Part shown: piece after piece, positions 40,933 through 45,066 of the stretch
Position numbering within the stretch: position 1 is the stretch's first letter
Layout: each line of letters opens with the position of its first letter
Origin: Ruegeria sp. 6PALISEP08
Lineage (GTDB): Bacteria > Pseudomonadota > Alphaproteobacteria > Rhodobacterales > Rhodobacteraceae
Assembly (NCBI RefSeq): GCF_001238295.1
Contig: NZ_LGXZ01000002.1
Location: 1 to 64,000, forward strand
Direction: 5' to 3'
Length of the DNA: 64,000 nucleotides
Notes under the pieces: model-generated
The model's database searches: none
The model's input: only the letters and a program-made list of their open reading frames with translations
Told to the model about the DNA's origin: nothing
Position numbers and translations under genes: made by a program

Positions 40933-41457
40933 TCAGTATTCAGGGCGCGGGGGGCACTCCTCTCCGACGACCGTACCGTCATAAGCCTTTTCACCGCAAT
41001 TGTTCAGAACGTGCCAGATAAAGCCCCGGCCGTCTTCGGTAACCGCCACGATGCGATCAACACCGTAATGCACGTTTTTTTGGCCGATGAATGCCTGCGC
41101 CTTACCGGACTTCAAGTTCTCGGCCAGGGCCGCGGCATCGTAGCAGTCAAACCAGCCCGGTGCGGTCAGTGGCGTTGTCTCGTCTGCTTGAAGGTAGGTG
41201 GCCTGCAGTTCTTCCAGCGCGACATCGGTTTCAAAACACGCGCGGAACCGGATCGGAGAGCTGTCTGCGTCAATGGCCTGAAACGAAGAATAGGAAATGG
41301 CCACCGGCGCCTGAGTTGCATCAACGGACAGAACTACATCCCTGCCTGGAGTGGGCTCAACATCATAGTAATAGCCGTAGACCTGCAGATAATACATGCC
41401 AACGCCTGCAATAGCTGCAGACATGAGCAGGATGAGTGCCAGAATTTTTCCAGTCAT
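40933..41457 (-). CDS. Small membrane-anchored protein, probable DUF6446-type
   Basis: A 174-residue protein with one N-terminal helix (ILALILLMSAAIAGVGMYYL) and a periplasmic domain. Conserved-looking pieces are FQAIDADSSPIRFRACF and FIWHVLNNCGEKAYDGT, with three or four cysteines that could pair. I recall this pattern from a Rhodobacterales-only family, sometimes mis-named histidine kinase in annotations, though it has no kinase features. It is ten bases upstream of gltS, in the same transcript. The function is unknown. Confidence 0.65.
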   Translation of the reverse strand: MTGKILALILLMSAAIAGVGMYYLQVYGYYYDVEPTPGRDVVLSVDATQAPVAISYSSFQAIDADSSPIRFRACFETDVALEELQATYLQADETTPLTAPGWFDCYDAAALAENLKSGKAQAFIGQKNVHYGVDRIVAVTEDGRGFIWHVLNNCGEKAYDGTVVGEECPPRPEY

Positions 41458-42189: not shown

Positions 42190-43119
42190 TCAGGCTTGGA
42201 ACCCGGCCGCCTCGGTCTGAACAAACGCATCCGCGCATTGCTTTGCTAGCGCCCGCACGCGGCCGATATAGGCCTGTCGCTCGGTCACCGAGATCACCCC
42301 CCGCGCGTCCAGCAAGTTGAAGATGTGGCTGGCCTTGATGCACTGATCATAAGCCGGGTGCGCCATGATGATGCGCTTGCCGGTTTTTGGATCGACGTGC
42401 TCTTGTGCCAGAATGGCGGCGCACTCGACCTCGGCCTCTTCGAAATGACGCAGCAGAACTTCGGTGTTGGCAACATCAAAGTTCCAGCGGGCGTATTCCT
42501 CTTCGGTTTGTTTGAAGATGTCACCGTATTTCAACGGGCTGGGCGATTGCGGGTCATTAAACGGCATGTCCATCACGTGATCGACGCCCAGCACATACAT
42601 GGCCAGACGCTCCAGACCATAGGTCAGCTCACCCGAGACGGGTGCACAATCATGGCCACCCACCTGTTGGAAATAGGTGAACTGGCTGACTTCCATACCG
42701 TCACACCAGACTTCCCAGCCCAGACCCCAGGCGCCTAGCGTGGGGCTTTCCCAGTCATCCTCGACAAACCGGATATCATGCAGTTCCATGTCGATGCCGA
42801 TAGCCTCAAGGCTGCCCAGGTACAGTTCCTGCAGATCGGGCGGGCTTGGTTTGATCAGCACCTGATACTGATAGTAATGCTGCAACCGGTTTGGATTCTC
42901 GCCATAACGACCATCCGTCGGACGGCGCGAGGGCTGAACATAGGCTGCGGCCCAAGCCTTGGATCCCAGCGCACGAAGAGTGGTCGCGGGATGGAACGTC
43001 CCTGCCCCGACTTCCATGTCATATGGCTGCAGAATCGCGCAACCTTTCGAGGCCCAATAGGTCTGAAGCCGCAGGATAATCTCCTGAAATGAACGCGGTG
43101 CGCTGTTCGGTTCGGTCAT
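42190..43119 (-). CDS. glyQ: Glycine-tRNA ligase alpha subunit
   Basis: Catalytic alpha subunit that activates glycine and charges tRNA-Gly together with GlyS. The 309-residue protein contains [18 protein letters not shown] (motif 2 region), [18 protein letters not shown] and the C-terminal helical part. ATG 43119 follows AGAGGGAATGCC; the frame extends six codons further upstream. It is convergent with marC by eight bases. Confidence 0.96.
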
Positions 43120-43326
43120 GGCATTCCCTCTGGGCACCCTTGCGCCCGGTTCCGGTCGGTTTGGCCCTTCCTATGCAAGGGGCAAAGGGGCGTCAACGGG
43201 GCTTTGGCCCACGGCTGTATCTGCGCGGCCACACCGCAAATTCCCCGTATTCGCGGCATGGCAATTGACACCTGAAATCGCGTACTCTGCGCCAAAGCAC
43301 AAACACTGCAAATAAACGGGCAGATT

Positions 43327-45066
43327 ATGAAACGCGTATTCACAGCAATTCTATTGTTTCTATTGGTCGGGCTGCGCGCCGCGTCCGCTCAACAAGACCA
43401 AGGCGTCTGGGTGCAGGTCGAGGCGCAACCGTCCTTGCGCGAAGCACAGGATCGCGCGCAAGCCTACGCCGGTGCTCTGCCCGACGTGAACGGCTTTCGC
43501 CTGAACAGCGGCTGGTACGCAATCGTCATCGGCCCCTATGCGCGCCAGGACGCCGAACAGGTGCTGCGGGTGTATCGATCCGAAGGTCAGATTCCCCGCG
43601 ACAGCTTCATCGCCTTTTCCGGCGGGCTCGGGCAACAGTTCTGGCCTATCGGTGCAAATGTGCTGAACCGTGGCACTGTCGCGGCACCCGTTGCGCCGGT
43701 TGCTGAGGCCGAAGACACTCTGACAATCGCACCCACTCAGGACGCGGATGAAACCCGCGCACAGGCTCTGCAATCCGAACGCCTGCTGACCGCGCAGGAC
43801 CGCAAGGATCTGCAAACGGCGTTGCAGGCGGCCGGGTTTTACAACTCTACCATCGACGGGGCCTTTGGTCAGGGAACGCGCCGTTCAATGGGTGATTGGC
43901 AACGATTTAACGGGTTTGAAGCAACCGGCGTGCTAACCACGTCGCAGCGCAAAGCCTTGATGGACGACTATAACGCGCCGCTGACCAGCGTTGGGATGGC
44001 CCGATATTCCGATGACGCGGCTGGGATCACGATGGACCTGCCTTTGGATGCTGTCCGCTTTGATCGCTATGAAGCTCCGTTTGCCCACTTCAACAGCGCA
44101 TCCGAGCTGAATGCCAAAGCCCTCTTGATCAGCCAGGACGGTGACAAGCGCACCCTGCGCGCCCTGTATGAAGTCATGCAGTCGCTGGAAATCGTTCCGC
44201 TGAACGGCCCGCGTGAGCTGCGAGGAGACCGCTTCACCCTTGAAGGGCGTGGAAATGGCGTGGTGTCCTTTACACAGGCGCGCCTGACAGACGGCAAAAT
44301 CAAAGGGTATTCACTGATCTGGCCCGAAGGCGACGAGGCACGCCGCGTGCGAGTTCTTTCGGCTATGGCCTCCAGTTTTACCACCACCGACGCGGTGCTC
44401 GATGCCGCCGCAGGTGCAGATGCCGCGCAAAACATCGATCTGGTGTCCGGCTTGCAAATCCGCAAACCGCGCCTGTCCCGCTCGGGTTTCTTTGCCGATG
44501 AGAAGGGAACCGTTTTGACAGTTTCGGAAGCCGTCGAGAACTGCACCCGGATCACTCTGGACGGGGATCAGGAGGTGCAGCTTGCCATGGCCGATGACGA
44601 AGTAGGAGTCGCGGTTCTGCGCCCATCCAATGCACTGGCCCCCATGAGCGTGGCCGCTTTCAGCCCGGCACTGCCGCGTCTTCAATCTGACGTTGCGGTC
44701 TCAGGTTTTTCTTATCAGGGTGCCCTGGGTGCCCCGACACTGACATTCGGACAAGTTGCCGATGTGCGTGGCCTGAATGGCGAGACAGGTGTTAAACGCC
44801 TGGCCCTGAACGCGCAGCCCGGCGATGCGGGCGGCCCGGTTTTCAATGACAGCGGCAACGTTGTCGGGATGCTGTTGCCCACACCGTCTGAAGGGCGCAG
44901 CCTGCCTGCTTCGGTCAGTTTGGCGGCCACTGGTGAGCGGTTGACGGAAATCCTGGCGAAGGCTGGCGTGTCCGGTCAGTCAAGCGAAGAAACCACGCAA
45001 ATCTCACCCAACGAACTGAACCGTCGCGCGACAGGCATGACGGTTCTGGTGCACTGCTGGGATTGA
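43327..45066 (+). CDS. Exported SPOR / peptidoglycan-binding / inactive trypsin-like protein
   Basis: A 579-residue protein with a signal peptide (about 1-21). Residues 25-95 look like a SPOR domain, which binds denuded septal glycan, then a Pro/Ala linker, then a PG_binding_1 domain at 155-215 (LLTAQDRKDLQTALQAAGFY, DGAFGQGTRRSM). The last 200 residues follow a trypsin-like peptidase: the histidine position in VLTVSEAVENC is Glu401, the aspartate position in DDEVGVAVLR is Gly427, and the serine motif reads GDAGGP with Ala501. All three catalytic residues are therefore replaced, so it is probably a peptide-binding pseudoprotease in the periplasm or at the division site. Confidence 0.8.
   Translation: MKRVFTAILLFLLVGLRAASAQQDQGVWVQVEAQPSLREAQDRAQAYAGALPDVNGFRLNSGWYAIVIGPYARQDAEQVLRVYRSEGQIPRDSFIAFSGGLGQQFWPIGANVLNRGTVAAPVAPVAEAEDTLTIAPTQDADETRAQALQSERLLTAQDRKDLQTALQAAGFYNSTIDGAFGQGTRRSMGDWQRFNGFEATGVLTTSQRKALMDDYNAPLTSVGMARYSDDAAGITMDLPLDAVRFDRYEAPFAHFNSASELNAKALLISQDGDKRTLRALYEVMQSLEIVPLNGPRELRGDRFTLEGRGNGVVSFTQARLTDGKIKGYSLIWPEGDEARRVRVLSAMASSFTTTDAVLDAAAGADAAQNIDLVSGLQIRKPRLSRSGFFADEKGTVLTVSEAVENCTRITLDGDQEVQLAMADDEVGVAVLRPSNALAPMSVAAFSPALPRLQSDVAVSGFSYQGALGAPTLTFGQVADVRGLNGETGVKRLALNAQPGDAGGPVFNDSGNVVGMLLPTPSEGRSLPASVSLAATGERLTEILAKAGVSGQSSEETTQISPNELNRRATGMTVLVHCWD

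Follow-up and report, generated by a model that had tools for sequence, protein, structure and literature searches.

What can a protein with wall-binding modules do with a trypsin domain that has lost all three catalytic residues? This question is raised by a gene on the forward strand at 43327..45066 (ATG start, stop codon included in the coordinates) of the analyzed window, a stretch of 64,000 nucleotides from Ruegeria sp. 6PALISEP08. Its 579-residue product combines a SPOR domain, a PG_binding_1 domain, a PsbP/Mog1-like domain and a trypsin-like pseudoprotease domain. A sequence-only reading had already described SPOR, peptidoglycan-binding and triple-dead trypsin domains, and this anatomy was borne out by Pfam and by alignment, the residue numbers given for it being correct. 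The fourth domain, a C-terminal Cys-Trp tail and the clade-wide extent of the triad loss are additions of the present analysis.

Domain architecture of the protein

All features of the protein lie on the + strand. Residues 1-21 (43327..43389) form an apparent signal peptide of the Sec type, judged by eye, with cleavage between ASA and QQ and without a lipobox. The SPOR domain (residues 25-110, 43399..43656) was assigned from Pfam, predicted secondary structure and invariant residues. By sequence score the assignment is borderline: residues 25-78 reached 19.5 bits in the Pfam search of the protein (cut-off 21) and 23.2 bits in a six-frame search of the genome, and SPOR was matched at E <= 0.01 in 24 of 45 aligned orthologues. 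The order of strands and helices predicted for residues 27-97 agrees with SPOR, whereas the SPOR part by itself found no match when searched by sequence in the PDB. Q30 and W63 are invariant in all 45 orthologues, and Q30 corresponds to the Gln position of the SPOR profile, provided that the alignment is ungapped there. SPOR domains recognize denuded glycan at septa, where a conserved Gln, Q270 in RlpA and Q251 in FtsN, touches the sugar (PMC6895207). The invariance of Q30 and W63 is, as far as sequence goes, consistent with denuded-glycan binding and septal localization. A septal place is suggested by the SPOR domain alone. We infer that the protein binds peptidoglycan; its PG_binding_1 domain (PGB; residues 156-211, 43792..43959) scored 49.2 bits in Pfam (cut-off 23) and was matched in 45/45 orthologues.

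The region between PGB and the trypsin domain (MID; residues 219-355, 43981..44391) has no Pfam match and was recognized by AlphaFold2 and structure comparison. Folded alone, residues 219-362 gave a pLDDT of 95.6, and the structural matches comprised PsbP (2vu4; Z 11.9, rmsd 3.4, 130 of 144 residues), CyanoP (2xb3; Foldseek E 1.0e-5), Mog1 and DcrB. The model thus places MID, as a predicted alpha-beta sandwich, in the PsbP/Mog1/DcrB superfamily, a likeness of fold that does not imply a shared function.

The trypsin-like pseudoprotease domain occupies residues 379-548 (44461..44970), with a Pfam Trypsin_2 match of 54.7 bits at 386-515 (cut-off 27.6). An AlphaFold2 model of the full-length protein, built on the 45-row alignment, had a mean pLDDT of 86.1 and a pTM of 0.41, so that the individual domains are reliable but not their relative arrangement. 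Model residues 371-548, to which the list of PDB structures is confined (the absence of other families from it carries no information), matched DegS (2qf0; Z 20.1, rmsd 2.3 over 162 residues), HtrA1 (3tjn; Z 19.9, rmsd 2.9 over 162 residues) and other Deg proteases (Z about 19-20), with a best Foldseek E of 1.7e-10; the trypsin-like fold proposed earlier is therefore the predicted one. Among Pfam matches up to E 10, there was no PDZ domain.

The protein ends in a tail (residues 563-579, 45013..45063) closing with Cys577-Trp578-Asp579. Cys577 and Cys406 (44542..44544) are its only two cysteines. Both were found in all 197 orthologous dead domains described below, where Trp578 is kept in 192; among 60 active-type relatives, Cys406 occurs in 60 and Cys577 in 58, the other two having gaps at the domain ends. 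A disulfide between Cys406 and Cys577, which would link the tail with the loop next to the former His position, is probable.

Loss of the catalytic triad in a single clade

Domains were assigned to the dead or active class by profile score and not by their triad, the smallest gap being 22 bits for dead and 87 bits for active domains. The 208 dead domains found reduce to 197 distinct sequences, of which 159 come from whole-genome loci and 38 from named contigs, some being near copies or one organism represented twice; for middle-score genomes, the residues were read in the best 150 rows of the family list. Domains with <140 model positions or <40 bits were excluded, including L153, which has Arg, Asp and Gly at the three triad places, as were trypsin-less loci and L312 and L313, which have lost the nucleophile loop. 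The active-type class (n=60) consists of 25 sequences from other alphaproteobacterial families and 35 from Rhodobacteraceae.

The columns of Glu401 (44527..44529), Gly427 (44605..44607) and Ala501 hold the catalytic His, Asp and Ser, respectively, in 60/60 active-type relatives. The triad was never complete in the first 71 sequences, and it is complete in 0/197 of the full set, which has Gly at position 427 in 179 domains and His at position 401 in none; the protein thus deserves the name of pseudoprotease that it had been given. A single triad residue is kept in eight of the 197, being Asp427 in L077, L112, L144 and L148 and Ser501 in L132, L136, L146 and L311. It had been argued beforehand that homologues with an intact triad would make the loss a local one. 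Such homologues do exist, namely the 60 active-type sequences, but they lie on other branches and the loss is clade-wide; with 0/197 orthologous domains intact, a local loss was rejected.

Other positions changed as well. Around the nucleophile, the window's protein reads QPGDAGGP, residue 498 being Pro, and Asp500-Ala501 (44824..44829) replace the Asn-Ser of GNSGGP. Position 500 is Asn in 59/60 active forms and acidic in 195/197 dead ones (Asp 190, Glu 5, Asn 2), with Ala in 140 and Ser in 4 at position 501. Together with this switch, Gln491 (54/60 active) gave way to a clade-specific Arg491 (44797..44799; 186/197 dead), and Arg491 with Asp500 may represent a rebuilt dead site. A compensating Asp at position 423 was considered and rejected, since active forms align an Asp there besides Asp427.

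When the catalytic columns were masked, a 115-row tree, to which a long-branch warning attaches, placed the 63 dead rows behind one branch (100/99) that was present in 200/200 bootstrap trees. In a 77-row tree rooted on seven DegP-like rows, all with intact catalytic motifs, the dead clade (99) grouped with 15 active Rhodobacteraceae rows (95) within the active forms; this tree came from a quick search without bootstrap and omits five long dead rows. The dead forms hence make up one clade, and its nesting among active forms implies that the loss of catalysis is derived and probably single.

Active-type rows were found in 39/390 Rhodobacterales genomes (E <= 1.5e-43, the list showing a gap beneath these rows; of the 40 rows, 30 were retrieved), a sporadic occurrence. 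SPOR, PGB and trypsin matches occur together in six active copies of the family (L149, L154, L162, L178, L179 and L181). The MID profile matched no active copy at E <= 1, and a single profile-profile comparison related MID to the stretch between PGB and trypsin domain in active copies with a probability of 60% (E 8.4e-5); the full-length model also matched L149 over model positions 141-353. These six copies and the MID-related stretch suggest that the ancestor probably had the same layout with an active protease. Inspection by eye of the neighbors of six active copies gave no evident conserved partner.

Some further features of active relatives were recorded. In other alphaproteobacterial families (L082-L106), the active trypsin domain and Cys tail follow N-termini that look Sel1-like, MORN-like or PG-binding by eye, only PGB having scored in the profile search. 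L090 contains two adjoining same-strand genes, both of which encode PGB along with an active trypsin domain. An active copy in the window's own genus (L206:4942-8323, genome G958) lies near a resolvase-like ORF, judged by eye, perhaps within a mobile region.

Occurrence at the glyQ locus and purifying selection

A search with the single sequence gave a match at E <= 1e-10 in 256/295 genomes of the family. Five of them are weak or partial (G017, G023, G030, G130 and G162), and the remaining 251 are at E <= 7.2e-42. Named relatives with the protein belong to Ruegeria and other Rhodobacterales, and the window's genome has a single full-length copy. The divergent neighbor in the window is glyQ (42190..43137, - strand), which adjoins the gene on the opposite strand at 107/112 loci. 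Of the five misses, four have just 1-112 bases upstream before the contig stops, and L011 alone has a 1500-base flank without glyQ.

Several observations concern the surroundings of the gene. In the intergenic stretch between glyQ and the gene (43138-43326), blocks around CTGCGCGGCCACAC and ATCGCGTA look conserved among Ruegeria loci. A 174-residue protein is encoded at 40933-41457 beside glyS/glyQ, and in relatives it is often found with glyQ and the dead protease. Cell-cycle control by CtrA was rejected: TTAAN7TTAA, which we take as the CtrA site, is absent from 62 upstream stretches (the window's own gene being included twice), and GANTC, the motif scanned alongside, is present in 13 of the 62.

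Genomes without the gene were also inspected; the empty-locus search covered 23 genomes, four of them without a glyQ match, and 20 of the 39 no-match genomes were usable. Where a good match was lacking, 19 glyQ loci were inspected, and none of the longest ORFs past glyQ gave a SPOR, PGB, MID or trypsin profile match. In L188, L193 and L203 the next ORF is TrkH-like by eye, as in an empty site, and seven genomes of g120 gave no match at E <= 1e-15. In genus g24, the orthologous ORF is without the trypsin domain in 25/25 genomes searched, with SPOR-PGB-MID remaining. Lack of the trypsin domain goes with a second SPOR domain in 24 of these 25 (L315-L338 and L151), and glyQ likewise adjoins the gene in 24/25, the exception in both respects being L333, at a contig end. 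G289 has SPOR-PGB-MID only, and G817 and G915 of the same genus retain a remnant of the trypsin domain that lacks the nucleophile loop. Some lineages have thus dispensed with the trypsin domain and others do not have the gene at all, so that neither is essential everywhere.

Where present, the protein is under purifying selection. Among 153 Ruegeria pairs, 40 had synonymous sites short of saturation (though dS was near 1), and these gave omega estimates of 0.079 (SPOR), 0.057 (PGB), 0.170 (MID), 0.153 (trypsin domain) and 0.049 (residues 563-579), the last being the lowest of all segments. Mean identity was also lowest in the trypsin domain (0.56, with 0.59-0.66 in the other domains). The dead domain is thus constrained about as MID is, and the wall-binding modules and tail are constrained more strongly. 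A pseudogene was rejected, the frame being open and omega about 0.13 over the whole protein.

Possible roles and known systems

We consider it somewhat better than an even bet that the protein is a periplasmic, peptidoglycan-bound, non-catalytic scaffold in which an ancestral protease domain was turned into a binding or structural part. In such a mechanism, SPOR and PG_binding_1 would tether the protein to the wall, probably at sites that SPOR domains target, i.e., peptide-stripped glycan as found at septa, and MID together with the former trypsin domain would serve some other component of the envelope as a folded platform, for binding or for structure. An active protease of the same kind of layout would be the ancestor of the trypsin domain, with catalysis lost once near the base of the clade. 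After this loss the fold would have been retained, the dead site rebuilt (Arg491 with Asp500) and the tail anchored by the probable Cys406-Cys577 disulfide. Support for this scaffold role comes from the absence of complete triads in a single clade nested among active forms, the want of any highly conserved His, Lys, Ser or Tyr in the dead domain, an omega of about 0.15 in the trypsin domain and 0.05 in the tail, the constancy of the glyQ locus and the persistence of SPOR-PGB-MID in the trypsin-less genomes, and it is weakened by the borderline SPOR score, the pTM of 0.41, the losses of domain and gene and an omega drawn from 40/153 pairs. More tentatively, as one possibility that we hold less probable, the protein could be an unnamed and widespread wall-bound factor of Rhodobacteraceae, with the dead trypsin domain rebuilt, through Arg491-Asp500 and a disulfide-tied tail, into a binding module that works where SPOR binds, for example at the septum, in an evolutionary series from active protease through pseudoprotease to deletion.

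The main rival reading is that SPOR-PGB-MID is the working unit and that the trypsin domain is a vestige without an interaction of its own, kept mainly since its removal destabilizes the protein. We regard this as rather unlikely, even though the unit persists beside glyQ in the trypsin-less genomes of g24 and G289, the nucleophile loop is gone from L312 and L313, the triad positions drift freely, and the trypsin domain has both the lowest identity and an omega two to three times that of SPOR and PGB. Against it, the domain is constrained equally to MID, clade-specific R491, D500 and W578 have become fixed in it, Cys406 and Cys577 are invariant, and the full domain is present in most genera sampled.

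A peptide sensor, the second idea of the sequence-only reading, in which the cleft would still hold peptides or unfolded chains but leave them uncut, is improbable. The trypsin fold is predicted, Gly499 of the oxyanion loop is kept in 185/197 dead domains and GGP is retained, yet Q528, N529 and N531 of Q528-N529-x-N531, which we take by analogy with S1 proteases to be the substrate-holding strand, are present in only 12, 15 and 15 of the 197 dead forms, compared with 55, 60 and 59 of the 60 active ones, and a PDZ domain was not found by Pfam. The apparent degradation of this strand speaks against a canonical peptide sensor. Taken as a whole, then, the earlier interpretation stands as to a pseudoprotease of unnamed layout with peptidoglycan-binding modules, and peptide sensing in the trypsin cleft is not supported.

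An equally small chance is left to a regulator of an active protease, either an active paralogue or a DegP-like enzyme, after the example of MamO, which activates MamE in magnetotactic Alphaproteobacteria (PMC4794232). Dead and active copies do coexist in five genomes (G177, G134, G052, G173 and G124), and pairing with a Do-type protease may occur. However, the active type is found in 39/390 Rhodobacterales genomes versus the dead copy in 251/295 family genomes, and the window's genome has no active-type row at E <= 1.5e-43 (best 4.0e-30). Hidden catalysis through other residues is most improbable of all: position 401 is acidic in 143/197 dead domains and position 500 in 195/197, but position 401 is not fixed and a conserved nucleophile or base is missing, no His, Lys, Ser or Tyr being conserved in >90% of the 197 dead domains.

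A scaffold of the favored kind can be set beside several known systems. FtsN, DamX and RlpA resemble the Ruegeria protein in the order of the SPOR fold, and Q30 fits the glycan-contacting Gln of RlpA and FtsN; unlike them, the Ruegeria protein is, by reading, soluble and secreted, with neither an N-terminal transmembrane anchor nor a lipobox, and carries, besides SPOR, another domain for wall binding and the dead protease domain. A paper on vesicles of Dinoroseobacter shibae lists a SPOR lipoprotein, Dshi_0924 (PMC7901474), whose lipoprotein label is at odds with the lipobox-free protein described here. The HtrA/Deg proteases (DegS, DegP and HtrA1) share the protease-domain fold, with Z about 20, whereas the dead protein has no triad or PDZ match and carries wall-binding modules and the C-terminal Cys-Trp tail. 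The active Trypsin_2 proteins (L082-L106 and L149-L186) have the same Cys406/Cys577 pair, and the active paralogues within the family additionally have PGB and, in six cases, a SPOR match; they differ in their triad (60/60), in Asn500 and Gln491, and in being sporadic where the dead form is widespread.

A literature search, mostly outside subscription papers, gave no description of this SPOR-PGB-pseudotrypsin family, in line with the earlier impression of an unnamed layout. Bacterial pseudoproteases of the trypsin fold with a studied role are few, MamO being the one met in the literature and the nearest described bacterial case. MamO likewise has a Trypsin_2/HtrA-like fold, a degenerate site, an active ancestry and non-catalytic roles, and has as features of its own a residue other than Gly at 193, a bulky Trp within loop L1, His that binds metal and a membrane domain of TauE type (PMC4794232). 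In contrast, the Ruegeria-type protein keeps Gly499, which in the window's protein follows Pro498 (QPGDAGGP) with no bulky Trp, has SPOR, PGB and MID instead of TauE and, in a comparison made without aligning the exact MamO positions, shows no His conserved above 90% that would answer to the di-His motif. In Rhodobacteraceae, a dead protease holds a fixed locus in most genera sampled of one large family, with intact relatives within the same family, which suggests that a machinery that long ago stopped cutting was kept for a binding or structural role. The case draws attention to a still unstudied wall-binding protein of Ruegeria and its relatives, and its natural series of active, dead and deleted forms bears on what a protease fold does after catalysis ends.
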